From NCBI GenBank assembly GCA_001871015.1, contig MNUO01000128.1, forward strand, positions 1 to 28,565: DNA of 28,565 nucleotides, read 5' to 3'. The notes beneath the pieces were generated by a model. The model saw only the letters and a program-made list of their open reading frames with translations, searched no databases and had not been told where the DNA came from. The stretch's first letter is position 1, and each line of letters begins with the position of its first letter. The position numbers and the translations under genes are program-made. This DNA comes from Candidatus Desantisbacteria bacterium CG1_02_38_46 (lineage in GTDB: Bacteria > Desantisbacteria > UBA1551 > UBA1559). Shown here piece by piece: positions 145-26,468 of this stretch.

Positions 145-3100
145 ATGTCTACTCGACAAAAAAATATTATTCTCTGCTTTATTTTTATGATTGCTACCAA
201 TGCTTTTTCTTTCAATTACTGGAATATTGCTGGACAGGTAGATATTTCGAGGGTAAAAAATAATGTTGAATATTTTTCTAATTTAGGTTCGAGAGTTTGT
301 GGTTATGAAGGAGAAAGAAAAGCCGCTGAATACATCATAAGTGAATTGAAAAATTTAGGTTTAGAAGTCAGGGTTCAGGAATTTGATGTGGTAGTTCCAA
401 AAGATAAAGGAGCAAGTTTAAAAGTTATCTCTTCAAACAGGATACTCACCCTGCATTCTCTATGGCCAAATGGTGTCCGAACCTCTACTTTGCCAGAGGA
501 AGGACTGGATGGGCTCCTTATTTATGGTGGAAATGGAAATCTTGAAAATTTAAACGGAAAAGAAATAAAAGGCAGTATTGTATTGTTAAATTTCAATTCT
601 GGAGCAAATTGGTTAAATTTAGCAATGTTAGGAGCAAAAGCAATTGTTTTTATCCAGCCTCAGAAAACCAATCGTACAGAAGCAGGAAAAACTTTTACGA
701 CTGTTCCTGTCAATGTGCCAAGGTTTTATATTAAAAGCAACGAAGCAAAAATTTTAATTTCTGAAATTAATAAAAACAAAGAAAAAGAAATTCCTGTTCA
801 TTTAAAAGCAAGAATGGAATGGGAGAAAGTCCAATCAAAGAATATTTTTGCCACACTTCCCGGAAGAGATAAAAAACTTAAGGATGAAACAGTAGTTATT
901 CAATCTTTTTACGATGCAATTTCTGTAGTGCCCTCTATTGCTCCTGGAGCAGAAAATTCTACAGGAATTTCAGCTCTATTGGAAATAGCAAGAATTCTAA
1001 AAAATAATCCACCAAAAAGAAATGTAATCTTTTTAGCTAATTCTGCTCATTTTATTACAAGGAAGGGAATCTTTGCTTTTATTAATGAATTTGCCAGAAC
1101 AGATAAATATTTCAAAGATAAAATTAAAAATCCAATAAAAATTAGTTTATTTATTGGGCTTGACCTTTCCAGCCATAGCGATGAATTAGTTGTCTGGCAT
1201 AACAGTGAAGATTTTTACCATCAGAGATATCTTGCTCCTCTGGGTAAAAAGTTTATTGATTATGCGCAAGAAATATGTAACTCTCTGGGATATAAAATAT
1301 CTAATACTTTTTCCAATGGAATTACAGCAGAAAAAGGAATCAGTTTTTCAAGCCTGATTCCTGTGAAAATTATGGCTGATGGGGAAGTGCCATTAAAAGC
1401 CGGAAATCCGTCAATATCTATTATCACTGCCCATGATGCACGCATGCTTGTTGATACTCCTCTGGATAAAGCTGAATACATTAATTATGGAAATTTAGAA
1501 AAACAAATTAAGTTTCTTTCCTGTCTTCTAAAGAAAGCTATAGATGAAGAAGAAATTTTTCCAAAATTAGCAATGGAATTAAGAGATTTGCTCAGGGGGC
1601 TGAGAGGAGAAATTGTATCTTTTGACCCGAGGGAAAGTTTTGTTCCTGATAAGCCTATTAAAGGAGCAGTTACAGAAATTATTATGTCACAGGAGAAAGC
1701 AGTTGCTGGAGTAAGAACTACTTATTTCAATATAACTGATGAAAAAGGACGCTATTTTGAATTATTTCCTACAGTGACTGCTGTGGAAATTCATGCATAT
1801 GTCTTAGATAAAGACGGGAATATTGTTTATGCTCCAGATCGTGGAGTTAATGGGGCTGAAAATTACCCGATGAAAGCTTGGATTGATTGGTGGGAAAAAG
1901 CACAAATTACAGTTCTTTTTCCATGTGTTCCCATCGATATTTTTGAATTAATTGACCCCAGATATTTAACTTCAATGAACCGCATCGATATTTTTAATAT
2001 TAATAACAGTCTTCCCTATGCTTACGGTTATACTTTTATTGACCAGAAAATCCCGGTATGGATAGGGGCGACTTCTCTTAGCGAGCCGGTTGCAGTTATT
2101 TTTACTCATCCACAGGAAAAAATAAAAATTGCTTTCGGAACAGGGGCATTGGGAATGCGCCAGTTACTTCTTAATTCTCCAGGAAGTAAAAAGAAATCTT
2201 TGTCAGAAGGGGTGGGTTTTGAACCTACTGTAAAAAATATTGCAAATACTCCTTTCCAGGCAGCAAAAGATATGTATAACCTCGATGAATTTAGAATAAC
2301 GCAGTTGTATAAGTATGGAATTTCTAATGCCCGGCTTTTAGAATTACATCAGGAATCTGCAAAATTTTTAAAAGAATCAGAAAAAGCAAAAGAAGAAAAA
2401 AGATGGGATGATTTTGTCAGATATTCTCGTCGCAGTGCCGGACTTGAATCCAGAGCATATCCAGATGTAAAGGGAACAATGAACGATGTAATTTCCGGTG
2501 TAATATTTTATATGTTTTTAATACTGCCTTTTTCCTTTTTGTTTGAGCGTCTTGTTTTTGGCTTTTCTGACATTAGAAAACAAATAGTTGCTGTTTTTGG
2601 AATATTTTTAGCAACCTATTTAGTTTTAAGACTGGTTCATCCTGCTTTTTCTCTTACTTTTGCCGCAGAAATCATACTTTTAGCCTTTATTCTTCTGGCT
2701 TTGTCATTGCTTGTTATTTCATTTGTTTCTGGGAAATTTGAAGAATTAATGAAAAAGAGGAAAAGAGAGACATTAAAAGTAGAGGAAGCAGAAATATCCA
2801 GAGCAAGTGTTCTTTCCCGTGCTTTTTCTCTGGGTGTTTCTAATATGAAAAGGAGAAAAATGCGTACTTTTCTCACTGCTCTAACTTTAATTCTTTTGAC
2901 TTTTACTGTTCTTTCTTTTACTTCAGTTCGAGCCTATTTAAAATTTTATCAAATATATCGTTCAAATGTTCCTCCTTATCAGGGAATGCTCATCAGGGAC
3001 CGTGTCTGGTTTCCTTTAGAAGAAAAGACATGTGAATATCTAAAAGAAGATTTTTCAAAGGAAAATACAATTATTTCTTCGCGTTCCTGGTTTATTGTGA

Positions 3101-4581
3101 GGACTAAAGGAGAAAAAACTAATTTTAAGATAAGGTATCAAGATAATTCTTTTTATGCTTCGGGTTTAGTAGGATTAGAGCCGGCTGAAAGAGAAATTAC
3201 AGGAGTTGATAAAAGTTTAATAAGGGGGAGATGGTTTGAACAAGGGGAAGAGAATGTTTGTATTATTCCCGAGGAGATGGCAAAGTTATTAAAGATAAAT
3301 TTAGAAGAAGCAGGGAAAGCAAAAATTAAATTGTTTGGAGAAGAGTTTTTAATTATTGGAGTTTTTGATTCTAAGAAATTCAATCAATTTAAAGATATTG
3401 ATGACGAAGCACTCACTCCGGCAGAGTTTATGGGAACAATGGAAGAAATGCATGGAAAAACACTTCAGGAGAAAAGAGGTGGTGGATACCAGGCAGAAAA
3501 AGCAAAGATAGAATCTTTTCTCCATACCGATGGAGCAAATATTATTATACTTCCTTATCAGCAAGTAGTAAATTCAGGGGGAACCATTCAATCAATTGCT
3601 ATAAAATTTATTGATGAGAAAGATTTAAAGGAAAAAATAGAAAATTTTGTTTCTCGATTAGCATTAACTGTTTTTGCAGGAATAGGCAATAATTCTATTG
3701 TTTATTCCTCTCTTTCCGGAACTTCTTTTAGCGGTTTAACAAACCTTCTTATTCCAATTATTGTTGTTGCTTTAATCGTGTTAAACACAATGATGGGTTC
3801 GGTATATGAAAGATTCAGGGAAGTTGGAACTTATTCAGCTTTGGGGCTAGCTCCCACACATATTTCTATGCTTTTTATTGCCGAGGCATGTGTTTATGCA
3901 ATTGTGGGAGGAATATGCGGATATTTATTGGGGCAGATAATCGCTAAAATCTTTACAGTGACCGGAACACTTTCCGGATTAACCTTAAATTATTCTTCTC
4001 TTTCTGCAGTTTCCTCTACTTTAATGGTAATGGCAGTTGTTTTTCTTTCAACAATTTATCCTGCAAACAAGGCTTCAAAAATGGCTGTTCCTGATGTGAC
4101 CAGAAAATGGAAAATTCCTGCTCCAGTTGGTGATGACTGGAGATTTGATTTTCCATTTACAGTAAGTGAAAAAGAAGTTTTAGGGTTATTTGTTTTTTTA
4201 AGAAATTATTTTGCTTCCTATACAGAAGAATCAATCGGAGATTTTTATACTGAAGATACTCATTTTGAAACTTTTGAATTAGAGGGAAGGGAAGAAAAAG
4301 GATATTTAATAAAAATGAATGTCTGGATTGCTCCATTCGACTTAGGTGTAAGTCAAAAGATAGAATTAAGAGCCACTCCTACTGAAGATAAAGGGATTTA
4401 TTTGATTGTTGTTTTTATTAATAGAATGAGTGGAGAAGGAGAAGACTGGAAAAGATTAAATCGTCATTTTCTTAATTGCCTGCGTAAACAATTCTTAGTA
4501 TGGAGAACAATTGCTGAACAAACAAAAGAAGAATACAGGGAAGAAGGAAGAAAATTTTTATTTAAGGAGAATACCAGATGA
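145..4581 (+). CDS. M28-peptidase-like / FtsX permease fusion protein
   Basis: The 1478-residue protein starts with a signal peptide or anchor (about 1-22). A PA-like segment lies at about 110-215 and an M28 aminopeptidase-like fold at about 230-470. The M28 metal site is degraded: the usual HxD position reads SFYDA (254-258), the GADD position reads GAEN (268-271) and the EE position reads AH (301-302). A later D (IGLD) and H (ITAHD...DTPLD) are kept. Three TM segments follow at about 783-865. An FtsX/MacB-type permease comes next: the first TM at 908-932 after a KRRKMR motif, a periplasmic domain to about 1195, then three TMs with ERFREVGTYSALG after the first. A soluble tail of about 160 residues closes the protein. 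Shine-Dalgarno GGAGGT (132-137) supports the start. The end overlaps the next gene by 4 nt. It is probably an ABC permease subunit with a substrate-binding, rather than hydrolytic, peptidase-like domain. The ATPase is likely the one at 8672. Confidence 0.75.
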   Translation: MSTRQKNIILCFIFMIATNAFSFNYWNIAGQVDISRVKNNVEYFSNLGSRVCGYEGERKAAEYIISELKNLGLEVRVQEFDVVVPKDKGASLKVISSNRILTLHSLWPNGVRTSTLPEEGLDGLLIYGGNGNLENLNGKEIKGSIVLLNFNSGANWLNLAMLGAKAIVFIQPQKTNRTEAGKTFTTVPVNVPRFYIKSNEAKILISEINKNKEKEIPVHLKARMEWEKVQSKNIFATLPGRDKKLKDETVVIQSFYDAISVVPSIAPGAENSTGISALLEIARILKNNPPKRNVIFLANSAHFITRKGIFAFINEFARTDKYFKDKIKNPIKISLFIGLDLSSHSDELVVWHNSEDFYHQRYLAPLGKKFIDYAQEICNSLGYKISNTFSNGITAEKGISFSSLIPVKIMADGEVPLKAGNPSISIITAHDARMLVDTPLDKAEYINYGNLEKQIKFLSCLLKKAIDEEEIFPKLAMELRDLLRGLRGEIVSFDPRESFVPDKPIKGAVTEIIMSQEKAVAGVRTTYFNITDEKGRYFELFPTVTAVEIHAYVLDKDGNIVYAPDRGVNGAENYPMKAWIDWWEKAQITVLFPCVPIDIFELIDPRYLTSMNRIDIFNINNSLPYAYGYTFIDQKIPVWIGATSLSEPVAVIFTHPQEKIKIAFGTGALGMRQLLLNSPGSKKKSLSEGVGFEPTVKNIANTPFQAAKDMYNLDEFRITQLYKYGISNARLLELHQESAKFLKESEKAKEEKRWDDFVRYSRRSAGLESRAYPDVKGTMNDVISGVIFYMFLILPFSFLFERLVFGFSDIRKQIVAVFGIFLATYLVLRLVHPAFSLTFAAEIILLAFILLALSLLVISFVSGKFEELMKKRKRETLKVEEAEISRASVLSRAFSLGVSNMKRRKMRTFLTALTLILLTFTVLSFTSVRAYLKFYQIYRSNVPPYQGMLIRDRVWFPLEEKTCEYLKEDFSKENTIISSRSWFIVRTKGEKTNFKIRYQDNSFYASGLVGLEPAEREITGVDKSLIRGRWFEQGEENVCIIPEEMAKLLKINLEEAGKAKIKLFGEEFLIIGVFDSKKFNQFKDIDDEALTPAEFMGTMEEMHGKTLQEKRGGGYQAEKAKIESFLHTDGANIIILPYQQVVNSGGTIQSIAIKFIDEKDLKEKIENFVSRLALTVFAGIGNNSIVYSSLSGTSFSGLTNLLIPIIVVALIVLNTMMGSVYERFREVGTYSALGLAPTHISMLFIAEACVYAIVGGICGYLLGQIIAKIFTVTGTLSGLTLNYSSLSAVSSTLMVMAVVFLSTIYPANKASKMAVPDVTRKWKIPAPVGDDWRFDFPFTVSEKEVLGLFVFLRNYFASYTEESIGDFYTEDTHFETFELEGREEKGYLIKMNVWIAPFDLGVSQKIELRATPTEDKGIYLIVVFINRMSGEGEDWKRLNRHFLNCLRKQFLVWRTIAEQTKEEYREEGRKFLFKENTR

Positions 4582-6548
4582 AAGAAATTGAAGAAGAGAT
4601 AAAAATAGGGTATGAGGAAGAACCTTATAAGGATGGTTTTAATTTAAAAACAGTATTTGCTGCTCTATTTATTGGTTTTATTATTCTTCCTGGAGCAATA
4701 TATTTAGGGCTTCTCACAGGTCAATCTTTAGCCGGAGCAGCTGAATGGGTAACTATTATTCTTTTTATTGAAATTACTAAACGTTCTCTGGGTAAAATGT
4801 CCAGGCAGGAAATCTATGTTATTTATAGTATCGCTGGAGGATTGATTGCTCCTGGAGTAGTTTTGGGAGCAGCAACTCTTGTTCTTCACGGAGGATTTTT
4901 CAGCCAGAACATCTGGAATCAGTTTTTAAGACAATCGCCGCAGGCAGAAGCATTTGGTCTTACAAAACTTATCCCTAATTGGGTCGTTCCTGCACTTGGT
5001 TCAGAAGCATTGGCAAAAAGAACATTTTTTCATCAGGATTGGTTTGTTCCGGTAATCATTCTCGTTCTCCATCAATTCTTATTCATGGTGAATTCTATGA
5101 GTTTAGGATATGCTTTTTTCCGGGTTACCAGTGATATTGAAAAATTATCATTCCCGATGGCTTATGTAGCTGCTGGTGGTGCAACTGCATTAGCAGAAAC
5201 AACAGAAAAAAAGGAAACCTGGAGATGGGAAATGTTCAGCATAGGTGGAATGATTGGATTAGTTTTTGGTGCAATTTATGTCACTATTCCTACAATTACT
5301 GGTTTAATGATGGCAAAACCTTTAACAATTTTACCAATTCCTTTTATTGATTTTACACCCGGTTTAAGTAATTTCCTTCCGGCAGTAGCTTTTGCTGTAA
5401 GTACTGATCTGGGAGCATTATTAACCGGAATGATTATCCCTTTCTGGATGGTCGCCGGAATATTTATGGGTGGAGTAGTCACTAATTTTGCTCTGAACCC
5501 TGCATTTTATAAAGCAGGAATTCTTACTCATTGGAAACCAGGAATGGGGGTTCTTCCTACATCGCTTTCTAACAGCCTTGATTTGTGGCTCAGTGTTAGT
5601 ATAGGAATGTCAGTGATTGTAGCAGCTGTTGGGATTAGAAAAATATTTTCTATTTTTAAAGAAAAAAAATTAAGTTTTAGTAAAATTGAAGTTCCAAAAG
5701 GAAGAGGAGATATTTCTATTTCTTTTGCTCTTATTATCTGGGCAATTTCCACTCTTCTTTATATTATCTTATGCAATATTCTTGTTCCCGATTTTCCATT
5801 ATGGATTATCATTATCTTTGGATTTATTTTAACCCCTCTTTTGACTTATATTTCAGCTAGAATGTTAGGCCTTGGAAGTGTTGCAGGTATAAATTTTCCT
5901 TACCTGAAAGAAGGTTCTTTTATTTTAAGTGGTTATAGAGGAGCGGCAATCTGGTTTGCCCCTGTTCCATATTATAACCATGCCTGGACAGTGCAGGGAT
6001 GGAAGATGGCTGACCTGGTGCGGGTTAAATTTAAGAGCATCATCAAAGCATCCATTTTAGGATTTGTTGTTACTGCTTTTTGTAGTTTTATTTTCTGGGG
6101 AATAACCTGGAAATTAGGTTCTATTCCTTCAGCAATGTATCCTTATGTGCAGAAGATTTGGCCCTATGAAGCGACTTTTAAATGTTTATGGACCTCGGCT
6201 ACAATGGAAGGAGGAGCAAAATGGATGCTTCAGGCAATAAAGCCAGGGGTTATTATATGTGGAGGAGCAATTGGAGCACTTATTTATTTCTTGTTAAATT
6301 TATTTGGAGCTCCAACCTTAATTTTTTATGGAATTTTAGGAGGGATAGGAGGTTTACCTTTCAATGCTCCGGCGATGTTTATTGGAGCTTTAATGGGAAG
6401 ATATATTTTTAGTAGGAAATACGGGAAAATGTGGAGATCTTATACCCCAATTCTTCTTGCTGGTTACGGATGTGGAATGGGACTGGTTGCCATGGCTTCC
6501 ATTGCCATTGCTTTAATCGGGAAATCTATCTCCCAGCTGATATTTTAA
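4578..6548 (+). CDS. OPT-like polytopic membrane transporter
   Basis: The 656-residue protein is almost entirely hydrophobic, with roughly 14-16 TM segments after a charged 20-residue N-terminus. Glycine-rich repeats in the membrane spans (SIAGGLIAPG, GGIGGLPF) and large re-entrant-looking loops resemble oligopeptide transporter (OPT/YSL)-type proteins and related 'peptide transporter' families. I see no nucleotide-binding motif. The start ATG overlaps the stop of the M28-FtsX gene (ATGA), so translation is probably coupled. The pairing with a peptidase-like permease suggests peptide or amino-acid-conjugate traffic, but the substrate is unknown. The membrane-protein call is certain. The OPT assignment is from overall character and is only moderately sure. 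Confidence 0.6.
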   Translation: MKEIEEEIKIGYEEEPYKDGFNLKTVFAALFIGFIILPGAIYLGLLTGQSLAGAAEWVTIILFIEITKRSLGKMSRQEIYVIYSIAGGLIAPGVVLGAATLVLHGGFFSQNIWNQFLRQSPQAEAFGLTKLIPNWVVPALGSEALAKRTFFHQDWFVPVIILVLHQFLFMVNSMSLGYAFFRVTSDIEKLSFPMAYVAAGGATALAETTEKKETWRWEMFSIGGMIGLVFGAIYVTIPTITGLMMAKPLTILPIPFIDFTPGLSNFLPAVAFAVSTDLGALLTGMIIPFWMVAGIFMGGVVTNFALNPAFYKAGILTHWKPGMGVLPTSLSNSLDLWLSVSIGMSVIVAAVGIRKIFSIFKEKKLSFSKIEVPKGRGDISISFALIIWAISTLLYIILCNILVPDFPLWIIIIFGFILTPLLTYISARMLGLGSVAGINFPYLKEGSFILSGYRGAAIWFAPVPYYNHAWTVQGWKMADLVRVKFKSIIKASILGFVVTAFCSFIFWGITWKLGSIPSAMYPYVQKIWPYEATFKCLWTSATMEGGAKWMLQAIKPGVIICGGAIGALIYFLLNLFGAPTLIFYGILGGIGGLPFNAPAMFIGALMGRYIFSRKYGKMWRSYTPILLAGYGCGMGLVAMASIAIALIGKSISQLIF

Positions 6549-6564
6549 TAGCTAAGGAAATTAT

Positions 6565-6656
6565 ACGTAACTCAGACCTTCAGGTCTGACCTTCAGGTCT
6601 TCCACAACCTTCAGGACTAAAGTCCTGAGTTACGTAACTCAGACCTTCAGGTCTGA
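6565..6656. repeat. Cluster of palindromic repeats upstream of 6665 gene
   Basis: Two identical 25-bp copies of a unit reading ACGTAACTCAGACCTTCAGG then TCTGA lie at 6565-6589 and 6632-6656. Between them are a partial copy (CCTTCAGGTCT, 6590-6600) and the palindrome TCAGGACTAAAGTCCTGA (6611-6628). CTGAGTTACGT at 6625-6635 is the inverse of the start of the first unit, so larger nested hairpins can form. The same 18-bp palindrome recurs twice at 8591-8632. The cluster fills the whole gap between two genes and ends 8 nt before the next ATG. It resembles REP/MITE-like intergenic palindromes. Confidence 0.8.
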
Positions 6657-6664
6657 TTTTTTAA

Positions 6665-7555
6665 ATGATGGAAGAAAACTATAAAGTTTTTGGGTGGAGA
6701 GGAATCAGCTTTGAAATTCCTCAAAATTGGGAACTGGGAGCCATTCAAGATTCTGAAGAAAAAGGCTCTTTAAGATTTAATGACTTGAAGATTACAAGGC
6801 TTGAGCTTGAATGGAGAAAAGAACGCCAGGTTTTTTCTTTAGAAAAAATAGTTAATAGATATATTGAAACACTTAGAAAGAAAGCGAAGAGAACCGGATT
6901 AGAATTAGAGATAAAAAGAGATCTGAAAATTACTCCTCTTAAAGAAAAAGTAGGAGAATTTTTCTACTGGAAGGCTGATTATCAATCCTACAACCTGATA
7001 TCTTATTGTTTCAGAAGCAGTTACCTTATTTTTTTAAGAGTTCTTGCAAACCTAAAAGAAGATATAGAAGAAAAAGTAAAGAGGATTTATAAAACACTTC
7101 GGACATATTCTTTAGAAAAAAATTTATGGTCAGTTTATGATTTATGTGTTAAAATACCAAAAGAGTTCTATTTATTTGACTACTCTTTTAAAACGGGAAA
7201 TGTTGAGCTTTCTTTTAAGAGAAAAAAAGATTTTTTAAATGTCCGATGTATAAGTTTAGCCAGCATACTTCTTAGAAATAAAGATTTAAGGGAACTTTCA
7301 CCAGAATTGTGCAGAGGTTACTTGAAGGGTTTTAAATATAATTTTGGCGAAGAACCTTGTTACTCGCAAGATAAACGTCGGGGGTATGACGTAATAAAAA
7401 TAGAGGGGATGAAAAAAATATTTTTTAGAACTTTAAATAATGAAATAGTTTTAATCCATTCTCCTTATAAAAATAAAATTTTTGTTTTAAGGTTATTAAG
7501 TAAAGAAAAAAATTCAAAAATTTTAGACCAAATTTTAAATGAAATTAACTCGTGA
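6665..7555 (+). CDS. Hypothetical protein with two similar halves
   Basis: I do not recognise this 296-residue protein. It has no signal peptide or TM segment and is rich in Lys, Glu and aromatics. The N-terminal part (about 8-45) has GISFEIPQNWEL followed by strand-like charged segments. The C-terminal half (about 155-195) has a similar LCVKIPKEFYL opening. This suggests a duplicated small beta domain of the kind seen in PsbP/DUF1795-like 'x-IP-x-W' proteins. No clear Shine-Dalgarno precedes the ATG at 6665 (a second ATG follows at 6668), and the palindromic repeat ends just before it. The 3' end overlaps the PqqD-family gene by 17 nt. The context suggests an accessory cytosolic protein of the ABC/peptide block. 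Confidence 0.6.
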   Translation: MMEENYKVFGWRGISFEIPQNWELGAIQDSEEKGSLRFNDLKITRLELEWRKERQVFSLEKIVNRYIETLRKKAKRTGLELEIKRDLKITPLKEKVGEFFYWKADYQSYNLISYCFRSSYLIFLRVLANLKEDIEEKVKRIYKTLRTYSLEKNLWSVYDLCVKIPKEFYLFDYSFKTGNVELSFKRKKDFLNVRCISLASILLRNKDLRELSPELCRGYLKGFKYNFGEEPCYSQDKRRGYDVIKIEGMKKIFFRTLNNEIVLIHSPYKNKIFVLRLLSKEKNSKILDQILNEINS

Positions 7556-7913
7556 AGATTCTTTAAAAGCAAAGCCGGTAAGAAATCAAAAGCTTTTATG
7601 GGAAAAAGACGAAAAGGGAAATGTTCTTATTTATATTCCCCGCAGAAAAACAGCGTGGACACATCTGTTTTCTTTTATATTTAGTGAGAGCGGGAAGAAA
7701 ACAATTATTTTAGATGAAATAGGTTCAAAAGTATGGGAAATGTGTGATGGAGAAAAAACAGTTGAAGAAATAATCAGTTTTTTTTGTAAAGAGTATAAAT
7801 TAAACTTGAGGGAAGCAGAGGTTTCCATTTTCGCCTATTTTAAAAAATTAGCAGAAAAAAGGTTAATTGGTTTAATGATGACAAAGGAGGAAAAAAATGC
7901 AAGAAATATTTGA
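7539..7913 (+). CDS. PqqD-family (RRE-like) protein
   Basis: The 124-residue protein matches the PqqD layout. Early strands (LLWEKDEKGNVLIYIPRR, about 19-36) are followed by a helix region with IILDEIGSKVWEMCDGEKTV (about 53-72). The rest is a winged-helix-like tail ending near 112. PqqD domains are peptide-recognition elements that present precursor peptides to modifying enzymes such as radical SAM proteins. No radical SAM enzyme or evident precursor peptide sits beside it here. Instead it lies between an unknown protein and a permease, overlapping both (17 nt each). I infer a substrate- or peptide-recognition role for the transport block. The family call is good and the partner is unknown. 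Confidence 0.75.
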   Translation: MKLTREDSLKAKPVRNQKLLWEKDEKGNVLIYIPRRKTAWTHLFSFIFSESGKKTIILDEIGSKVWEMCDGEKTVEEIISFFCKEYKLNLREAEVSIFAYFKKLAEKRLIGLMMTKEEKNARNI

Positions 7914-8559
7914 TGAAAATGTATTTAAGAAAGGGATTGGCAGACAGATTAACCTTCCTTTTTTAAAAGCAGTTTCCACTGCCTTTAAAAATATAAGAGT
8001 AAGATTTGGCCGTTCTTTTATTACAATTGGAGGGATATTTTTTTCTTTAACTTTTTTAATGTCAACTTTTACTAATAATGTAATTGCCCAATCTCTTCTT
8101 GCCAGTGGAACAGACGAAGTAAAATTTTTATTACAACCAATGGCTCAAGAAGTACAGGCAAGACAAGTCTGGCTTATTTCTCTTTCTTTATTAGTTTGCA
8201 TAATCGGGATAATGAATGCAATGTTAACCTCAGTTACAGAAAGGTACAGGGAGATTGGAACCTGGAAATGCCTGGGAGCATTAGATCGCTTTATCGTTGA
8301 ACTTTTTTTATTAGAGTCAACTTTTCAGGGATTGATTGGTTCAATTGGAGGAGCAATTTTAGGGTTTCTTTTTCCTTTATTTGTTAATATTGGAAAATAT
8401 GGAACACAGGTAATTGAAGTTTTGCCATGGCTGGAAATTTTGAAATATGGAGCAATCACTATTGTTATTGGGCTTGTATTATCTATTGCTGGAGCAATTT
8501 ACCCTGCTTATCGGGCAACGCAAATGGTTCCTGCTGATGCAATGCGTCAGGAAATGTAA
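7897..8559 (+). CDS. Minimal FtsX-family ABC permease
   Basis: The 220-residue inner-membrane protein has the FtsX/MacB TM pattern. TM1 is at about 40-60 after a basic FKNIRVRFGRS segment. TM2 (about 92-112) is followed by the family motif TERYREIGTWKCLGA. Two further TMs lie at about 132-160 and 185-205, before a conserved IYPAYRATQMVPADAMR end. The periplasmic loop between TM1 and TM2 is only about 30 residues, while MacB/LolC-type proteins have 200 or more, so the extracytoplasmic domain is essentially missing. Shine-Dalgarno AAAGGAGG supports the ATG at 7897, which overlaps the PqqD-family gene. It is the natural second permease half for the M28-FtsX fusion, with the ATPase that follows. 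Confidence 0.85.
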   Translation: MQEIFDENVFKKGIGRQINLPFLKAVSTAFKNIRVRFGRSFITIGGIFFSLTFLMSTFTNNVIAQSLLASGTDEVKFLLQPMAQEVQARQVWLISLSLLVCIIGIMNAMLTSVTERYREIGTWKCLGALDRFIVELFLLESTFQGLIGSIGGAILGFLFPLFVNIGKYGTQVIEVLPWLEILKYGAITIVIGLVLSIAGAIYPAYRATQMVPADAMRQEM

Positions 8560-8561
8560 AG

Positions 8562-8656
8562 AGGTGTCAGGTCTTGACAAATGACAAATATCAGGACTAA
8601 AGTCCTGAGTTATATCAGGACTAAAGTCCTGAGTTACATGTCAAGACCTGACACCT
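8562..8656. repeat. Nested inverted repeat with two inner palindromes
   Basis: Outer arms AGGTGTCAGGTCTTGACA (8562-8579) and TGTCAAGACCTGACACCT (8639-8656) are perfect 18-bp inverted repeats. Inside them are two tandem copies, 24 bp apart, of the palindrome TCAGGACTAAAGTCCTGA (8591-8608 and 8615-8632), the same palindrome as at 6611-6628. The structure fills the gap between the mini-FtsX and ATPase genes and ends 4 nt before the ATPase Shine-Dalgarno. It could fold into a cruciform-like multi-hairpin RNA. No T-run follows, so it is not a classical terminator. It is most likely a non-autonomous palindromic element or an mRNA processing/stability structure. Confidence 0.85.
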
Positions 8657-8671
8657 AATAGGAGGTGGATA

Positions 8672-9412
8672 ATGGCTGAACAAAACGTGGTAAGGACAAG
8701 AGGAGTTAAAAAAGCATTTGATCTTGGGAAAGTAACTGTAGAAGCTCTGCGCGGGATTGATTTAGAGATTGCCAAAGGTGAGTATATTTCAATTATGGGA
8801 CCTTCTGGTTCTGGAAAAACTACTCTTTTTAATGTGATAGGAGGTTTAGACAAGCCCACTGAAGGAAGAGTTTACATAGACGAGGTGGATGTTGCACAGC
8901 TGGATGCTTATGAACTTGCATGGCTTAGATGCAGGAAGATAGGGTATATATTTCAGACATTTAATTTAATTCCGGTAATGACCGCTTTAGAAAACATAAC
9001 TTTACCAATGATTTTTGCCGGATTAAGTGAGGACGACGCCAGGGATAAAGGAGTAGAACTTCTTAAATCAGTAGGATTGGGAGAACGAGTCCATCATAAG
9101 CCCAATGAACTTTCTGGAGGTCAGCAGCAAAGAGTAGCCATTGCCAGAGCATTCGCAAACGACCCCGCAATTATTCTGGCTGATGAACCAACAGGAAACC
9201 TTGATTTAAAAACAGGAAAAGAAATTATAGGTTTATTGAAAGAATTAAATAAGGAAAAGGGAGTAACTATAATTTCTGCTACCCATGATTTAAAAATGAT
9301 TGATGTCTCTGATCGAATTTTCTGGATTAGAGATGGGAAAGTTGAAAGAATTGAGAGAAGAGCGGATGTTCAATTAGAGGTAGGTACAGTAGAAGGAAAG
9401 CAAGCAGGCTAA
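8672..9412 (+). CDS. ABC transporter ATPase (LolD/MacB type)
   Basis: The 246-residue ATP-binding subunit is complete. It has Walker A GPSGSGKTT (43-51), Q-loop Q95 in FQTFNLIP, signature LSGGQQQR (147-154), Walker B IILADEPTGNLD (167-178) and H-loop H206. The FNLIPVMTALENITLPM stretch is typical of the LolD/MacB/FtsE group that pairs with FtsX-type permeases. A strong Shine-Dalgarno (GGAGGTGG, 8661-8668) sits just after the palindromic repeat. It probably energises the mini-FtsX and the M28-FtsX fusion. The stop codon shares one base with the next start (TAATG). Confidence 0.92.
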   Translation: MAEQNVVRTRGVKKAFDLGKVTVEALRGIDLEIAKGEYISIMGPSGSGKTTLFNVIGGLDKPTEGRVYIDEVDVAQLDAYELAWLRCRKIGYIFQTFNLIPVMTALENITLPMIFAGLSEDDARDKGVELLKSVGLGERVHHKPNELSGGQQQRVAIARAFANDPAIILADEPTGNLDLKTGKEIIGLLKELNKEKGVTIISATHDLKMIDVSDRIFWIRDGKVERIERRADVQLEVGTVEGKQAG

Positions 9413-10626
9413 TGATATGGTTTCTTTTATTAATTCTTTTTTTGTTAAATTTAGTGATTCGTCAGAAGATAATTCCAGATTCTTGGAATATTATTTTTAT
9501 TTTTAATATATTTGCTGGTTTTTTGATTGTTTCTTTTTATGTGTATATGCGAAGTTTTAAAAGTAAAATTAGAATTCTTGAAATAAACTATGAAAAGGAG
9601 GAATTACGCTTAAGTGATGAAGAAGAATCTACTACTATTCTTGAATATTTAAGAAAAATAGTTGATGTTCTCGGAGAAGAGCCAGATCTGGAAGTGGTTC
9701 TTAATAAATTTGCGGAAATGGTTTCTGATTTATTAAAAGTAGAAAATGTTATTTTGCAACTTTACAGCGATGAAGAAAGAAAATTTTTTATGCGTGTTTT
9801 AAAAGGAAGAAAAGAAATAGAGCTGGCTGACCGGATTCTTAAGGAAGACGTGATTGAAGAAGGAAGGTCCCACTTAATAAATAATCTTATTTCTTTTCCT
9901 TATTATAAGGTACTATATGAACAGGGCTTTCGTTCCTTTATTGTTGCTCCTTTAAGAAGAAGAAACAGAATAATTGGATTAATTGCTGCTTTAAGTGAAA
10001 AAGAAGGAGAATTTACCAGTCAAAAATTAGACATTCTTACCATTATTTCTGCTGAAGCCGGCCTTATTGTAGAAAATGCTCATCTTTTGGAGAAAACAAA
10101 GTTGCTCTCTATCACTGATGGTTTAACCGAAATTTATAACCATCGTCATTTTCAGGAATGCATTAGAAAAGAAATTGAAAAAACAGAAAAGGCTAATTTT
10201 CCTCTTTCTTTAATTATGGGTGATATTGATAATTTTAAAAATTATAACGATACTAATGGGCATCCGGAGGGAGATAAAGTTTTACGTGAAATTGCCCAAA
10301 TTTTAAAAAGGAATACAAAAGGAAGCGATACAGTAGCAAGATATGGAGGAGAAGAATTTGTTATCATACTTCCAAATACAACCAAAGAAAATGCATTAAT
10401 AGTTGCGGAAAATCTTAGAAAAAAAATAGAAGAGAGTAAATTTCCTTTTGAAGAAAAATCGCAGCCAACTGGAAAACTAACCATTACTTTTGGAGTAGCA
10501 AATTACCCATTAGATGCAAAATCAGTTCGAGATTTAATTAAAGAAGCAGACCGCGCTCTTTATCGAGGGAAAGAAGAAGGCAAAAACCGAGTAGTTGAGG
10601 GTCAGACCTCAACATCTCACAACTAA
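9412..10626 (+). CDS. GAF-GGDEF diguanylate cyclase
   Basis: The 404-residue protein has two N-terminal TM segments (about 2-16 and 24-45), a short coiled coil, a GAF-like sensor (about 75-225) and a C-terminal GGDEF domain. The active-site motif is GGEEF at 312-316, as in catalytically competent cyclases that make c-di-GMP. The allosteric I-site RxxD, five residues before GGEEF, reads KGSD (303-306), so the key arginine is replaced and product inhibition is probably weakened. The protein should be anchored in the inner membrane. Its start overlaps the ATPase stop, so it is translationally coupled to the transport block, perhaps as its signalling output. Confidence 0.9.
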
Positions 10627-10649: not shown

Positions 10650-11441
10650 ATGATAGGCAAAGAGATAAGGATTGAAAGAATTATAAATCGCAATACCGGA
10701 CGCACTGTAATTATTCCTATGGACCACGGTGTTACGGTTGGACCAATTAAGGGACTGGAGAATATGAAGAAGACAATTGATGATGTAGTAAATGGAGGTG
10801 CCAACGCAATTGTTTTGCATAAGGGACTTGTGCGCGGCGGACATCGCGGAAAGGGAAAAGATGTTGGTTTAATTATTCATCTCTCAGGAAGCACAAGTTT
10901 AGCACCTGACCCTAACTTCAAGGTTCTTGTATGCACAGTTGAAGAGGCAATTCAATTAGGAGCAGATGCTGTATCAATACATGTGAATCTTGGTGCAGAA
11001 GATGAAAGTGAGATGCTGCATGATTTAGGAGCGATTTCTAAAAAATGTGTGGAATGGGGAATGCCATTGTTTGCGATGATTTATACACGGGGAGCAAAAA
11101 TTAAGAATCAATTTGATGTTGCTGTTGTAAAGCATGCTGCGAGAGTTGGCGCAGAACTCGGTGCAGATATAGTGAAAGTCAATTATACAGGAAGCGCAGA
11201 AAGTTTTAAGGAAGTAACCAGTACCTGCCCTGTTCCTGTGGTCATCGCAGGTGGAGAAAAGATGGAAACTGACAGGGAAATCCTTGAGATGATTGAGGGT
11301 GCAATGAAAGCAGGTGCTGCAGGTGTTTCTATTGGAAGAAATGCATTCCAGCATAAAGACCCTGTGGCAATAGTAAAAGTAATTTCTTCAGTTGTCCATA
11401 AGAATGTTACCATTGAAGAAGTTCTTAAAATCTTAAAATGA
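10650..11441 (+). CDS. aroA': 2-amino-3,7-dideoxy-D-threo-hept-6-ulosonate synthase
   Basis: This 263-residue class I aldolase-type TIM barrel is of the ADH synthase (MJ0400) family. MDHG (24-27) supplies the conserved acidic residue, YTRG (145-148) the tyrosine, and K176 in [10 protein letters not shown] is the likely Schiff-base lysine. The C-terminal phosphate-binding region is [10 protein letters not shown] and [12 protein letters not shown]. In archaea and some bacteria this enzyme condenses an aldehyde-level sugar with aspartate semialdehyde, the first step of the alternative route to 3-dehydroquinate. The next gene encodes the matching second enzyme and overlaps by 4 nt, which makes the assignment firm over the related fructose-bisphosphate aldolase or LsrF. 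The spacer carries a Shine-Dalgarno (AAAGGAG). Confidence 0.9.
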
Positions 11442-12403
11442 AAAAGTTCTGGGTGAAAATTATTCCATATAATAAGAATCTGGTGACCACTGCGCTCGAG
11501 AGCGGAGCAGATGCAGTGTTAATTCCATCCGGCTGCACGAAAAAGGTTAAGGAATTAGGATTGATTGCTACTATTGCCGGCGATGGAGATCTGAAATTAG
11601 GCGGGGATGTTATTGAAATTGTCATTAATAGCAAAGAAGATGAGGAAAGAGCAGCGAAATTAAACAGGGATAAATTTCTAATAATTCAGACAGGCAACTG
11701 GAAAGTTATTCCACTCGAAAATTTAGTTGCACAGCGCAGAGGCTTGATTGCACTTGTTAAGAATGCACAGGAAGCAAAACTTGCTCTGGGAATTCTTGAG
11801 AAAGGTGTGGACGGGATTCTTATGGATACCAGGGATGTAAATGAGATAAAAAGAACTTCCAGAATTATCAAGGAGGGAATGGAAAAACTTATTCTGTGCA
11901 GGGCAAAAATTATTAACATCAGACAAGTGGGCATGGGAGACAGGGTATGTATTGATACCTGCACCAATATGAAAATAGGACAGGGGATGTTAATTGGCAA
12001 TACTTCAAGTGGTATGTTTCTTGTCCATTCTGAAAGCGTAGAGAATCCGTATGTTGCTTCTCGTCCTTTCAGAGTAAATGCAGGAGGTGTTCATGCATTT
12101 ACCCGCATTCCTGATGGCAAGACCAAATATCTTTCAGATTTAAAAAGTGGTGATGGGATTTTAATTGTAGACCATAAGGATAATACACAGGTTGGAATTG
12201 TTGGCAGGATTAAAGTTGAAAAACGCCCGATGATTTTAATTGAGGGGGTACCCGCTGAAAGTGGGTCAATTGAAAAACACCCGATATCATTGGTTATGCA
12301 GAATGCTGAGACAATCCGCCTGACAAAACCCGGTGGAAAGCCCATTTCAATTGTAAAATTAAAACCAGGAGATGAAGTTCTTGGTTACGAGGAGGAAAGA
12401 TGA
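11438..12403 (+). CDS. aroB': 3-dehydroquinate synthase II
   Basis: The 321-residue protein is of the archaeal DHQS-II (MJ1249) family. The N-terminal part ([20 protein letters not shown], about 11-30) is followed by the conserved central block [11 protein letters not shown] (about 166-176) and [18 protein letters not shown]. The C-terminal block includes [17 protein letters not shown]. This enzyme oxidatively deaminates and cyclises the product of the preceding enzyme to 3-dehydroquinate with NAD. It is unrelated to bacterial AroB. The start overlaps the aroA' stop (ATGA), and the end overlaps the next gene the same way, so the three genes are one transcript. Confidence 0.93.
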
Positions 12404-17999: not shown

Positions 18000-19586
18000 T
18001 CAAAAGTACATTTTCTCTGCCACCAAATAAGCAAAATCTTTTTCCCTTTCGTTTGGTTTTATATGCTCTATTTTAGTGATTATTTCTTTTGCTTTTGTTC
18101 CAATCTCCAGTGAAAGGAGCAATTCTTTTGCGCCAGCTAAAGCACCATTGCCAATTTTAACTATTTTTTCTGGCACTGGAGGAATAAGTCCGATAGCAAT
18201 AGCATTTTCTGGATTTATGAAGTTCCCAAACCCGCCCGATAAATAAATTCTTTTTACTTTATCAAGCGTTATTCCGTAATATTTTATCAAAAGGTCCTGG
18301 TCGGCCCTTAAACCAGCCTTAGCGGTTATGAGTTGATAAATATCCTGTTGAGTGATGCTTATCTTTTCGTTAATAAAGAATTCTTCTTTTATTTTTGCTT
18401 TTTTATCCATAATTCCATTGCGAAGCATCTCTGCAAGCAAATCAATCAGACCCGAACCACAAATTCCCACCGCTGGTTTGCCACCTATTGTCTGAAAATT
18501 TATTTTCCCGTCACTTATCCAGACATTGCTTATCGCGCCTTCAACAGCACCTACTCCACATTTGGTAGATGCTCCTTCATAAGCACCCCCGGCAGCGCAG
18601 GAAGCGCTCATCATCTTATCTTTATTTCCAATCACAATTTCACCATTTGTACCGATATCAATAACCATAATTACATTTTCGCTTTCGTACATCTCGCAGG
18701 CTAAAATATTTGCTAAGGCATCAGCGCCAGCATGTCCTCCAATCAACGGGGGTCCGTATGCATTGCACTTTGGATTAACTATCAATCCCACATCTACAGC
18801 TTTTTTGCATATGGCTTTGGGATGGGGTGGCTCAAAAGGAATTACTCCTAACGTATCTACAGGTAAACCGAAAAAGAGATTTCGCATAGTAGGGTTACCA
18901 ACTGCAACTATGTCATAAATATATTTTCTAATTTCTCCCTTCTTCTTTTCCATTTGTTCAAGGCTATCATTTATAGATTCTATAATACATTTTTGCAATC
19001 TCTCTAAGCCATCTTTGTTACGCATAGTATAATCTATTCTGGAAATCACATCATTCCCGTAAGCAATTTGAGGATTTTTTCGTGAAGCTGCATCAACTAT
19101 ACGACCGTCTTCAAGGTCAACCAGTTCCATTACCAGGGTAGTTGTACCTATATCAATGGCTAAGCCGAATATTTCTCCTGAATACTTTCCCAGGTCTTCG
19201 CCGGAACAGTGAATTACCCTGTCGTTTTTCCGCCTGACAAAAGGGTCTAAGTGGACTTTTGTCTGCATGGTCTGGGTTAGAATGGAATATTTGCCAAAAT
19301 CTTTTATAAAAACATAGAGGTCAGTATGTGGGTCAACAATTTTTGCCTGACAGGCTAATCTCTCATTTCTATCTAACGAATGTTTCTTTTCCTGTTCTGT
19401 TTTTTCATTAAGACATTCCATACTTCCATCAATTCTGACTATACATTGGCCGCATTTACCCAGACCTCCGCATTCAGAAGCTATTTCAATGTCAGCAGTT
19501 TGGACATAATCAAGAATGCTTTTGCCCTCGGTCATTTCAATTCCGTCTTTTCCTTTTTTATACTGGGGAAAAAATATTTTTGCCAC
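18000..19586 (-). CDS. Ferredoxin-ASKHA (DUF4445/RamA-like) activator
   Basis: The 528-residue protein has an N-terminal plant-type 2Fe-2S domain with cysteines C39, C45, C48 (CGGLGKCGQC) and C79. The rest is an ASKHA-fold ATPase: phosphate motifs LAIDIGTTTLVMEL and MVIDIGTNGEIVIG, then GICGSGLIDLLAEML and LSGGFGNFI. The family contains reductive activators of corrinoid proteins such as RamA, which use ATP to re-reduce cob(II)alamin. It starts at GTG 19586 with AAGGAGA upstream. It ends the run of iron-sulfur ATPase genes, 35 bp after the second MinD. No corrinoid protein or methyltransferase partner of that type is visible in the window, so the client is unknown. Confidence 0.87.
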   Translation of the reverse strand: MAKIFFPQYKKGKDGIEMTEGKSILDYVQTADIEIASECGGLGKCGQCIVRIDGSMECLNEKTEQEKKHSLDRNERLACQAKIVDPHTDLYVFIKDFGKYSILTQTMQTKVHLDPFVRRKNDRVIHCSGEDLGKYSGEIFGLAIDIGTTTLVMELVDLEDGRIVDAASRKNPQIAYGNDVISRIDYTMRNKDGLERLQKCIIESINDSLEQMEKKKGEIRKYIYDIVAVGNPTMRNLFFGLPVDTLGVIPFEPPHPKAICKKAVDVGLIVNPKCNAYGPPLIGGHAGADALANILACEMYESENVIMVIDIGTNGEIVIGNKDKMMSASCAAGGAYEGASTKCGVGAVEGAISNVWISDGKINFQTIGGKPAVGICGSGLIDLLAEMLRNGIMDKKAKIKEEFFINEKISITQQDIYQLITAKAGLRADQDLLIKYYGITLDKVKRIYLSGGFGNFINPENAIAIGLIPPVPEKIVKIGNGALAGAKELLLSLEIGTKAKEIITKIEHIKPNEREKDFAYLVAEKMYF

Positions 19587-19621
19587 TTTATCTCCTTGCT
19601 TCTAATATCTTTTCTTTAAGA

Positions 19622-20491
19622 CTATTTGAGTTCATTCTGCAGAACCTCCCAGACACTTTTAATCTGCTGTGTAATTTCTCCATCTGAACACTCTACGACA
19701 ATTTTCCTGTTTACTATTGCTTTAGTTACTCTAACATCGTACATAATTTTACCTGCTAAATCAATTCCATTTTTTTGACAATAATCCTCTATTTTCTCAG
19801 TCATTTCAGTATTCAGGTCATATTTGTTTATAACTACAAAAGTTCTTATTTTGAAATGCCCTGCCAACTCTATTACCCTTACCATATCGTGGACACCAGA
19901 AAGAGTCGGTTCAGTTACTACTAAAACAGCATCTGTTCCAGTGATTGAAGAGATAACCGGACAACCTATCCCTGGTGGACCATCAATGATAATCATCTCG
20001 CGGTTTTCTTTTTCTGCTATTAATTTTGCACTTTGCCTTACTATGGTGACGAGTTTTCCTGAATTTTCGGAAGCTACACCAAGTTTTGCATGAACAAATG
20101 GCCCATATTTAGTGTCTGATATAAACCATTCTCCTGAAAGATTTTCCTCCATCCTGATTGCACCTTCAGGACAAACATAAAAGCAAACTGCACAACCCTC
20201 ACAGGAAATCGGGTCAATTATAACTCCTTTTCCATTTTTCCTTATGGCATTAAATCTGCATACTTCAATACATTTGGCGCACTGGCTGCATTTATCCATG
20301 TTGACTACTGCGGTCTTTCCACCGCTAAAATTATGCCTCTCTTTTACTTCTGGGTGAAGAAGGATATACAAGTCCGCAGCGTCCACATCGCAGTCTGCAA
20401 TGACTGCATTTTTTGTCATAGCAGCAAATGACGCTGTTAACACGGTTTTTCCAGTTCCACCTTTTCCGCTGATTACAACCATTTGTTTCAC
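19622..20491 (-). CDS. MinD-family ATPase with inserted ferredoxin domain (copy 2)
   Basis: The 289-residue protein is a deviant Walker A ATPase (GKGGTGKT, 9-16), with switch DCDVDAADLYILLHP. It carries an inserted pair of 4Fe-4S motifs: C68/C71/C74/C78 and C97/C100/C103/C107. A Walker B-like IIIDGPPGIGCP follows. These COG1149-type proteins occur in tandem pairs in anaerobes and are partners of the orange protein/NifX-like proteins. It starts at GTG 20491 (an in-frame ATG lies three codons later), one base after the stop of the first copy, so it is coupled. It probably forms a heterodimer with copy 1. Confidence 0.9.
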   Translation of the reverse strand: MKQMVVISGKGGTGKTVLTASFAAMTKNAVIADCDVDAADLYILLHPEVKERHNFSGGKTAVVNMDKCSQCAKCIEVCRFNAIRKNGKGVIIDPISCEGCAVCFYVCPEGAIRMEENLSGEWFISDTKYGPFVHAKLGVASENSGKLVTIVRQSAKLIAEKENREMIIIDGPPGIGCPVISSITGTDAVLVVTEPTLSGVHDMVRVIELAGHFKIRTFVVINKYDLNTEMTEKIEDYCQKNGIDLAGKIMYDVRVTKAIVNRKIVVECSDGEITQQIKSVWEVLQNELK

Positions 20492-20492
20492 T

Positions 20493-21347
20493 TTATTTTT
20501 CCTTCGCTTTCTGTTGGCGCAAATTTTCTATCAACTTAAACATATCAAGAAACTTTGTAGTATATTCTTTCTTTTCCTGAACCATCGGTATGCCCCGTGA
20601 ATACAAAGATGCAATTTCCATATCAAATGGTATAAGCATCAATATCGGAATTTCATTCTCTTTGCAGTATAAATCTACTTTATCGTCACCAATATCAAAG
20701 CGATTTATAATCACCCCAAATGGAATTTCTAATTTTTTTACTACCTCAACTGCCAGAATCAAATCATTGAGGCCAAATGGAGTAGACTCGGTGACTAAAA
20801 TACAAAAATCACTATTCTTGATTGATTCTATAACAGGGCAGGAAGTTCCTGGAGGAGCGTCAATGATGGCAATCTTACCATTGGCGATACTTTTCTTAAC
20901 TGTCCTGATAAGTGGAGGGGACATTGCTTCGCCTACATTAAGTTTTCCATTGATAAACTCAATTGGTCCAACCTTGCCGATTTGTATTATTCCTATTTCT
21001 TTGTCTACTTCTCTAATTGCTTTCTCTGGACAGAGTAAACTGCATCCTCCGCATCCATGGCAGAGTTCAGGGAAGATTAAAACCTTGTTTTTTATTACAG
21101 CAATTGCATTAAAGGCACAAATCTCCTGGCATTTACCACAATGGGTACATTTTTCCTCATTGACTTCAGGGACGGGAATGCCTACAGATTTTCTTTGCTC
21201 AATCTGTGGCTTCAAAAATATATGGGCGTTTGGTTCTTCCACATCGCAATCTAAAAACTGGACAGTGCGGTCCATAGAAAGAGCCAAATTTGTAGCAACC
21301 GTAGTTTTTCCTGTCCCACCTTTCCCGCTTGCGACTGATATTATCAT
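20493..21347 (-). CDS. MinD-family ATPase with inserted ferredoxin domain (copy 1)
   Basis: The 284-residue paralogue of the following gene has Walker A GKGGTGKTT (9-17), DCDVEEPNAHIFLKP, and two 4Fe-4S motifs with C67/C70/C73/C77 and C96/C99/C102/C106. IIDAPPGTSCPVI is the Walker B region. The tandem pair probably works as an ATP- and redox-driven scaffold or carrier for metal-cluster or cell-positioning functions. That fits what is reported for the ORP complex of Desulfovibrio. It follows the radical SAM gene by 59 bp. Confidence 0.9.
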   Translation of the reverse strand: MIISVASGKGGTGKTTVATNLALSMDRTVQFLDCDVEEPNAHIFLKPQIEQRKSVGIPVPEVNEEKCTHCGKCQEICAFNAIAVIKNKVLIFPELCHGCGGCSLLCPEKAIREVDKEIGIIQIGKVGPIEFINGKLNVGEAMSPPLIRTVKKSIANGKIAIIDAPPGTSCPVIESIKNSDFCILVTESTPFGLNDLILAVEVVKKLEIPFGVIINRFDIGDDKVDLYCKENEIPILMLIPFDMEIASLYSRGIPMVQEKKEYTTKFLDMFKLIENLRQQKAKEK

Positions 21348-21406
21348 AATTCCCTTATTATTTTCGTTCTGCTACGATTTCCTGGTAATAAAAATCCAGT
21401 GGTATT

Positions 21407-22819: not shown

Positions 22820-22828
22820 TTTCCCTCC

Positions 22829-22945
22829 TCATGACTTTCTGATTTTTCCATCAATCGAACTACAAATTCTGTCCAGAATCTTTGCTGCTTCAGAATCAGG
22901 ATAGGTTTCTATAAAAGATTTTCCATTATCAGTTGTTTCTACTAT
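22829..22945 (-). pseudogene. Displaced 3' end of mrp
   Basis: This segment encodes IVETTDNGKSFIETYPDSEA, then AKILDRICSSIDGKIRKS and stop, the canonical C-terminal helix region of Mrp/NBP35 ATPases. It begins with the second copy of the 4-bp target duplication and abuts the left end of the insertion sequence. Joined to the 5' part at 24926-25643, minus one CTAT copy, the frame is restored: ...FDPHI then VETTD... A small ORF can open inside the element (ATG 22987, 52 residues), but its first 14 or so residues are element-encoded and it has no reason to be a real gene. Confidence 0.88.
22942..22945. repeat. Target-site duplication, left copy (CTAT)
   Basis: CTAT lies directly outside the left terminal repeat. 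The same four bases lie directly outside the right one (24926-24929). Removing one copy with the element restores the mrp frame. Confidence 0.85.
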
Positions 22946-22964
22946 CCGATGTTTGTCATGAAAC
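22946..22964 (+). repeat. Left terminal inverted repeat
   Basis: CCGATGTTTGTCATGAAAC; its exact reverse complement is at 24907-24925, giving a perfect 19-bp pair that bounds the transposase gene. Confidence 0.9.
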
Positions 22965-23009
22965 AACCGTTTATCGACGGGAGCCATTTTATTTTTGTCA
23001 CCACATTGC

Positions 23010-24752: not shown

Positions 24753-24778
24753 TTGACACCTCCATCTTTTTGCATATT

Positions 24779-24807
24779 ATTATAGCATATTTCGAGAGAA
24801 ATGTCAA
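24779..24807 (-). promoter_or_regulatory. Consensus sigma-70 promoter of the transposase
   Basis: On the minus strand TTGACA (24802-24807) and TATAAT (24779-24784) are separated by exactly 17 bp, a perfect match to the housekeeping consensus. It lies inside the element, 27 bp before the transposase start codon, and points at the transposase and at the interrupted operon beyond. It may restore transcription of the radical SAM and MinD genes downstream of the insertion. Confidence 0.85.
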
Positions 24808-24906
24808 GTAAAAAATGCAACTAACTTAAATTATTTGACACCACGACAATCAACTTTCCAGAAAGTTTATAGAGGATAACTGCCTAAAAAATGGCCAAAA
24901 ACGCCC

Positions 24907-26419: not shown

Positions 26420-26468
26420 AGTTCCTTCCACTTTTGTTATCCTCTTATCATTTGAGTTCCATTTAAAA

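Follow-up and report, generated by a model that had tools for sequence, protein, structure and literature searches.

The closest described relatives of the system reported here are the Type VII ATP-binding cassette (ABC) systems MacAB-TolC, LolCDE, FtsEX and YbbAP-TesA. Like them, it combines FtsX-type permeases (PF02687), a MacB_PCD domain in the large permease half and an ATPase of the LolD/MacB/YbbA class (PMC5985334, PMC12646458), and it would share with them, as a general idea, the ATP-driven movement of an extracytoplasmic domain. The nearest precedent is YbbAP-TesA, in which a Type VII ABC is coupled to an enzyme-fold partner (PMC12646458). The system is encoded in a 28,565-nucleotide stretch of DNA from Candidatus Desantisbacteria bacterium CG1_02_38_46 (GenBank assembly GCA_001871015.1, contig MNUO01000128.1), which we refer to as the window. 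There, seven genes at positions 145–10,626 encode a giant permease with a peptidase-like ectodomain (M28-FtsX), an OPT-like transporter (OPTb), a PsbP-like protein, a PqqD-family protein, a small permease (mini-FtsX), an ABC ATPase and a GAF-GGDEF protein.

This block departs from the known Type VII systems in several respects. Compared with the LolC/LolE or MacB arrangement (PMC5985334), it is asymmetric, with one permease half devoid of an ectodomain. Furthermore, the giant half carries a fused PA and pseudo-M28 domain and three extra transmembrane segments (TMs), OPT-like, PqqD and PsbP-like proteins are linked to it, and there is one motor for several large permeases. A second comparison lies outside the ABC systems. 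The transferrin receptor, nicastrin and nicalin are pseudo-M28 receptors or scaffolds, in which the PA and M28 fold serves in binding without catalysis; unlike M28-FtsX, they occur in eukaryotes and no ABC permease is joined to them. Lastly, the copy-number logic of one motor gene and several receptor genes resembles that of group II energy-coupling factor (ECF) transporters, although the motor is here an ABC of the FtsX/MacB class and no sequence kinship is claimed. A literature search found no paper that joins M28 with FtsX or any three of M28, FtsX, PqqD and OPT, or that names the transporter family DUF6785, which recurs at related loci; the block is apparently undescribed, as an earlier reading made from the DNA letters alone (the sequence-only reading) had supposed. 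We assign a probability of roughly 0.5 to the view that it encodes a conserved system of the cell envelope with a Type VII ABC machine at its core, comprising an asymmetric permease pair and helper proteins.

Distribution and linkage of the gene set

Within its 1.73-Mb draft genome (G000), the window corresponds to contig 33, and genes upstream of the first open reading frame (ORF) are not visible, because the contig begins 144 bp before it. The description of seven co-oriented, mostly overlapping genes in the sequence-only reading was correct: all seven ORFs are present on the + strand between 145 and 10,626, and four of the six junctions overlap by 1–17 bp, with gaps of 116 and 112 bp at the other two. 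Only two genomes of the same order or phylum were available for comparison, and distant relatives were used instead, in a set of 386 genomes plus 80 named M28-FtsX loci.

M28-FtsX is present in 17 of the 386 genomes, from 13 families (protein search), and orthologs of mini-FtsX were found in exactly the same 17 (profile search, E ≤ 1e-30). The boundary of the mini-FtsX ortholog set is clean, since its members score 1e-53 to 1e-119 and the next-best FtsX proteins about 1e-22. The system PqqD occurs in 14 of the 17 genomes, with a single weaker match (5.7e-16) outside them, and the PsbP-like protein is found in 12 genomes, all of which carry M28-FtsX. Records titled Latescibacterota, Omnitrophota, Gemmatimonadota, Zixiibacteriota, Armatimonadetes, Ratteibacteria and others also carry M28-FtsX loci.

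These genes recur next to each other. In the neighbourhoods of the core genomes and the 80 named loci, the fullest operon, encountered whole or in parts, reads M28-FtsX, OPTb, PsbP-like, PqqD, mini-FtsX and ABC, preceded where present by DUF6785, a two-TM protein of 60–77 amino acids and a tetratricopeptide repeat (TPR) protein. The gene set of the window is most closely matched at G337/L071, G217, G075, L101, L112 and L149, while its phylum mate G001 has the same set in permuted order, plus DUF6785. In some genomes, the second half stands at a separate site, either as PqqD, mini-FtsX and ABC with or without a preceding PsbP-like gene, or as mini-FtsX and ABC alone. The set divides into two modules, one of M28-FtsX and an OPT-like transporter and one of mini-FtsX and ABC with the optional PsbP-like and PqqD genes; of the seven-gene order, whose conservation the sequence-only reading had proposed as a check, the core linkage recurs, but the order itself is not fixed. 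Given the co-occurrence over 386 genomes and the recurring gene order, the association is not due to chance, and the block is one conserved system.

The two-TM protein and the TPR protein are both conserved, and many genomes encode them immediately upstream of M28-FtsX (L101 2893–3816, L112 373–1288, L080, L081, L082 and others). They are probably further subunits, not visible in the window.

The ABC ATPase gene adjoins mini-FtsX in all 35 genomes examined, and the large permease can outnumber this pair. Four genomes (G112, G249, G377 and G282) have two M28-FtsX loci each versus one mini-FtsX. Likewise, 13 named genomes are each represented by two or three of the 80 M28-FtsX loci, with a single mini-FtsX gene per genome, including the 6.5-Mb chromosome OX638329.1; where three of the 13 show two mini-FtsX rows, these represent one gene matched in two neighbouring pieces. 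As only one mini-FtsX–ABC accompanies the two or three M28-FtsX genes of such genomes, we propose that a single engine of this kind probably serves several receptor/transporter units.

The pseudo-peptidase permease and its partners

M28-FtsX (145–4581, + strand) consists of a secreted ectodomain with PA and pseudo-M28 domains, a β-rich middle domain, three extra TMs, an FtsX/MacB permease half and a conserved C-terminal domain (residues 1318–1478). By hydropathy, it has seven TMs, the three extra ones followed by the four of FtsX, and the permease half is arranged as TM1, MacB_PCD and TM2–4. The FtsX domain (PF02687) exceeds its cut-off of 25.5 bits in both permeases, with 56.1 bits in M28-FtsX and 57.3 bits in mini-FtsX (7897–8559, + strand). 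Between TM1 and TM2, M28-FtsX has an extracytoplasmic MacB_PCD domain (28.2 bits, cut-off 27), whereas mini-FtsX, a permease half with four TMs by hydropathy and no periplasmic domain, has a spacing of only about 31 residues. Neither permease is fused to an ATPase. In profile comparisons, the C-terminal domain of M28-FtsX did not match the PsbP-like protein, nor did its middle domain match TPR.

The structural model of the ectodomain (residues 24–790) has a predicted local distance difference test score (pLDDT) of 93 and a predicted TM-score (pTM) of 0.91. Its best structure match is an Aneurinibacillus aminopeptidase (2ek8, E 1.8e-27), and the VIA Z scores are 29.7 for 3b35 (root-mean-square deviation 2.3, 263 aligned), 29.6 for 1amp, 29.5 for 2ek8 and 26.9 for the transferrin receptor (3kas), which shares the PA and M28 fold; nicalin was matched weakly at the sequence level. 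Together with the Pfam match to Peptidase_M28 (PF04389, 35.4 bits), these structure matches show an M28 fold with a PA domain.

For the catalytic residues, located by phmmer alignment to the BSAP and Aneurinibacillus aminopeptidases, we counted substitutions in an alignment of 95 M28-FtsX homologs longer than 1300 amino acids. The first zinc-binding histidine is replaced by tyrosine or phenylalanine in 93 of the 95 and the last by aspartate in 93, while the general-base glutamate has become histidine in 94 and the glutamate after it phenylalanine, histidine, tyrosine or arginine in all of them; the HxD-type aspartate and the LDLSS aspartate are retained. With most metal and catalytic residues replaced in at least 93 of the 95 homologs, an active M28 peptidase is ruled out. 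Judged from these substitutions, the domain is a pseudo-peptidase whose zinc site appears to be lost, and the peptidase-like part of the fusion named in the sequence-only reading is a dead one. That the replacements are themselves conserved speaks for a binding function that the domain has kept. Some M28-FtsX proteins contain inserted LysM or F5/8C domains.

The FtsX half (residues 1126–1354) also scores 208 bits against the PADLOC profile CARF_m8--CARF_LolE_TM, compared with 34 bits, the generic FtsX level, for mini-FtsX, hinting that relatives of this permease with other ectodomains exist. Proteins of that profile are labelled with a CARF sensor, whereas the best-matching stretch of M28-FtsX lies in the FtsX part and its modelled ectodomain (residues 24–790) is M28-like. 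A role in anti-phage defence was rejected, as PADLOC matches were restricted to the generic ABC ATPase and the FtsX part of the CARF_m8 LolE profiles, and a phage origin was rejected as well, with no match in PHROGs for three block proteins.

The ABC ATPase (8672–9412, + strand; ABC_tran 119.4 bits) belongs to the LolD/MacB/YbbA class and scores below the NCBIfam equivalog cut-offs for LolD (TIGR02211; 235.4 versus 307.75 bits), YbbA (216.7 versus 336), FtsE (206 versus 264.85) and MacB (221 versus 966). The block is best read as a variant of the Type VII (MacB/LolCDE/FtsEX-class) ABC systems and not as LolCDE, MacB, FtsEX or YbbAP proper.

OPTb (4578–6548, + strand), a multi-TM protein, had been called an OPT-like transporter. 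In support of this, six of 20 OPTb homologs hit OPT with E values of 0.01 or lower (best 5.5e-6), but the window protein itself stays below the Pfam OPT cut-off (19.7 versus 25.8 bits). By hhalign, OPTb and DUF6785 are full-length relatives (92%, E = 5e-7 over 558 columns). OPTb lies directly downstream of M28-FtsX at 53 of 89 loci, and where both flanks are visible, an OPT-like neighbour, OPTb or DUF6785, is found at 60 of 69 M28-FtsX loci. In several records titled Latescibacteria, OPTb has an extra insertion of about 140 residues; this insertion and the LysM or F5/8C inserts of M28-FtsX were noted among loci L059, L063, L018, L111 and L129.

The soluble PsbP-like protein (6665–7555, + strand), which belongs to no Pfam family, had been noted as a two-repeat unknown. 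Its repeats are borne out and it is less of an unknown now, as its structural model (pLDDT 83) contains two PsbP/Mog1-fold domains in tandem, with Z scores of 14.3 (9grx) and 13.4 (2xb3) for repeat 1 and 8.9 (4n7s) for repeat 2. The EagR chaperones SciW and EagT6 share this fold (Z about 10.8).

The PqqD-family protein (7539–7913, + strand; PF05402 40.3 bits, cut-off 23.4) has an extended N-terminus. Its setting among transport genes without a radical S-adenosylmethionine (SAM) enzyme, already pointed out from the letters, recurs: a CxxxCxxC motif scan found no radical-SAM-type neighbour at 18 system PqqD loci. As a control, the second, conventional PqqD of the genome (L216, contig 73, 6896–9484) lies directly before two Radical_SAM proteins; L216 is a separate, peptide-modification-like locus. 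Clustering of ORFs of at least 60 amino acids revealed no conserved precursor peptide, the only conserved small proteins being the two-TM proteins of 60–77 residues. The system PqqD shows weak similarity to the lasso, GeoRSP and PQQ PqqD models and reaches no PqqD cut-off for ribosomally synthesized and post-translationally modified peptides (RiPPs).

The seventh protein (9412–10,626, + strand; GAF and GGDEF domains, the latter with 168.3 bits) has two TMs and an intact diguanylate cyclase motif, in which GGDEF reads RYGGEEF. Its sensor half is 43–48% identical to that of genes at the same place in three genomes of genus g76, a weaker relative lies on the opposite strand in G337, and none was seen beside the remaining loci. 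It is a lineage-specific regulator and optional to the system; its inclusion in the block was right for the window, where it is adjacent, and holds in only a few lineages.

A proposed shared-engine model and its alternatives

In the mechanism that we propose, M28-FtsX and mini-FtsX would form an asymmetric permease pair, with a giant ectodomain on one half and none on the other, a pairing suggested by their co-occurrence. The dead PA and M28 domain may act as a receptor that captures a ligand, the ABC ATPase next to mini-FtsX would power the pair by mechanotransmission, and one or more OPT-like permeases beside M28-FtsX could provide the ligand with a path through the membrane. On the cytosolic side, PqqD and the tandem PsbP-like protein may bind or present the ligand without radical SAM enzymes. 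The ligand is most likely peptide-like, which is plausible given the M28 fold, the OPT-like partner and PqqD. More tentatively, the loci may belong to a modular, ECF-like class, in which one Type VII engine is common to several receptor permeases of the pseudo-peptidase type, a separate OPT-like transporter accompanies each of these, and cargo is handled in the cytosol by PqqD together with the PsbP-like protein.

A number of observations count against this mechanism. The co-occurrence statistics (hypergeometric log10 p with M28-FtsX of -29 for mini-FtsX, -21 for PqqD and -18 for the PsbP-like protein) are naive and optimistic, as the genomes are related by descent, though 13 families are involved, and the 80 named loci are the best-scoring 80 and not an unbiased sample. 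Five of the 17 core genomes have no PsbP-like gene and three (G125, G262 and G347) no PqqD. The sequence-only reading had regarded homologous loci without PqqD as speaking against the block; most core genomes do have the gene, and these three make it a frequent, not obligate, partner of the core. Moreover, nine of the 69 fully visible M28-FtsX loci lack an adjacent OPT-like gene, G039, G184 and G317 have an additional ABC gene copy beside M28-FtsX, so that sharing of the ATPase may be partial in these genomes, and the LysM and F5/8C inserts suggest contact with the wall or with glycans rather than peptide capture. What the analysis shows is the co-occurrence, the recurring linkage, the PA and M28 fold, the loss of catalytic residues, the one-to-many copy ratio and the lack of radical-SAM candidates next to PqqD; that the proteins assemble, that the cargo is peptide-like, which way it moves and what PqqD and the PsbP-like protein do are inferred.

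Among the alternatives, the one that survives best, although we consider it unlikely, is a signalling function, in which movement of the dead-peptidase ectodomain by the ABC motor would turn a process in the cell wall or envelope on and off and no cargo is transported. FtsEX sets a precedent as a Type VII ABC whose task is signal transmission instead of transport (PMC11627006). LysM, a domain of the peptidoglycan-binding type, in long M28-FtsX homologs, the TPR proteins upstream of M28-FtsX at 24 loci and the GGDEF signalling gene attached in some lineages fit this idea too. Of the long homologs scanned, however, only two contain LysM, and the adjacent OPT-like transporters and multiple M28-FtsX copies suit substrate specificity better than a single housekeeping switch.

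Rather improbable is an extraction process similar to that of LolCDE or YbbAP, which would take a molecule that is hydrophobic or held by a lipid anchor out of the inner membrane and deliver it to the dead-peptidase ectodomain, with the PsbP-like protein acting like EagR chaperones on hydrophobic segments. The ATPase is indeed nearest to the LolD, MacB and YbbA models, YbbAP-TesA is a case of a periplasmic hydrolase coupled with a Type VII ABC (PMC12646458), and the PsbP-like model resembles SciW and EagT6. Yet the ATPase reaches none of the three equivalog cut-offs, the enzyme-like domain has no working catalytic site and forms one protein with the permease, and the OPT-like proteins are left unexplained.

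We give little credence to the maturation and export of a ribosomal peptide, whose unseen precursor PqqD would recognize and the ABC machine export. While the PqqD-family match and its faint resemblance to lasso, GeoRSP and PQQ models would agree with it, the RiPP cut-offs are not reached, the only conserved small genes encode a membrane protein, and the 18 loci without a radical-SAM-type gene differ from the other PqqD of the genome with its two Radical_SAM neighbours; a RiPP cluster was rejected for this lack of a candidate beside PqqD. Least credible of all, and refuted for the core genes by matching phylogenetic profiles and linkage that recurs in many lineages, is a chance neighbourhood of unrelated transport genes, to which only the differing gene order between lineages and the unconserved GGDEF and downstream shikimate genes lend themselves.

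If the shared-engine mechanism is true, these loci represent an envelope ABC system in many largely uncultured phyla. Proteins annotated as 'M28 peptidase' would be recast as carrying a receptor domain, PqqD proteins would be used outside peptide modification, and the DUF6785/OPT-like families would gain concrete partners. The fixed mini-FtsX–ATPase pair and the one-to-many copy ratio make such a shared-engine ABC design testable.

A group II intron tail and other features of the window

The window opens with 157 bases that form the 3' end of a group II intron (RF00029), with domains V–VI at 73–157 on the + strand (47.6 bits), and further copies exist in the genome. The ATG at 145 lies within this tail, so that the intron supplies both the Shine-Dalgarno sequence and the start codon of the M28-FtsX ORF. 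Among the loci with this tail (L151–L156; G000 contigs 33, 70, 85, 76 and 98), five near-identical copies all end with GGAGGTATAAAAGATGTCTACTCGAC, which comprises these two elements, and in each of the five the ATG shares the reading frame of the downstream gene, as it does in a diverged sixth tail (85%). The resulting MSTRQ or MSTRH leads into M28-FtsX and, in the other copies, into an OmpA-like protein, an S2P-type protease and two more products, all named by inspecting the sequences, and the site of insertion is consistent with codon two of each downstream gene. The 5' half of the intron was not seen, because every near-identical copy is located at the end of a contig or close to it. This looks like a multicopy intron that inserts at gene starts, restores the translation start and adds MSTR(Q/H); a limited literature search found no description of an intron-supplied start codon of this kind.

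Both intergenic gaps of the block contain short palindromic repeats (6568–6656 and 8591–8636), with TCAGGACTAAAGTCCTGAGTTA occurring three times and TAACTCAGACCTTCAGGTCTGA twice, where none are expected by chance. Directly 3' of the GGDEF gene, at 10,650–12,403, lie archaeal-type shikimate entry genes for ADH synthase (411 bits) and 3-dehydroquinate synthase II (DHQS II, 443 bits), and a CsgG-like protein is also encoded after the GAF-GGDEF gene. Neither the shikimate genes nor the CsgG-like gene were seen as neighbours at related loci, and beyond the operon the neighbours there (GlyQ, an FtsY-like SRP GTPase, ETF, RecD2 and a sugar-isomerase-like protein) have no steady metabolic theme. Further downstream, the - strand of the window at 18,000–28,228 encodes a ferredoxin activator of the RACo-like type, two ParA-like ATPases with 4Fe-4S, a radical SAM protein, an Mrp-type ATPase and a NifX-like protein, and a DDE transposase gene at 23,010–24,752 breaks up this group.

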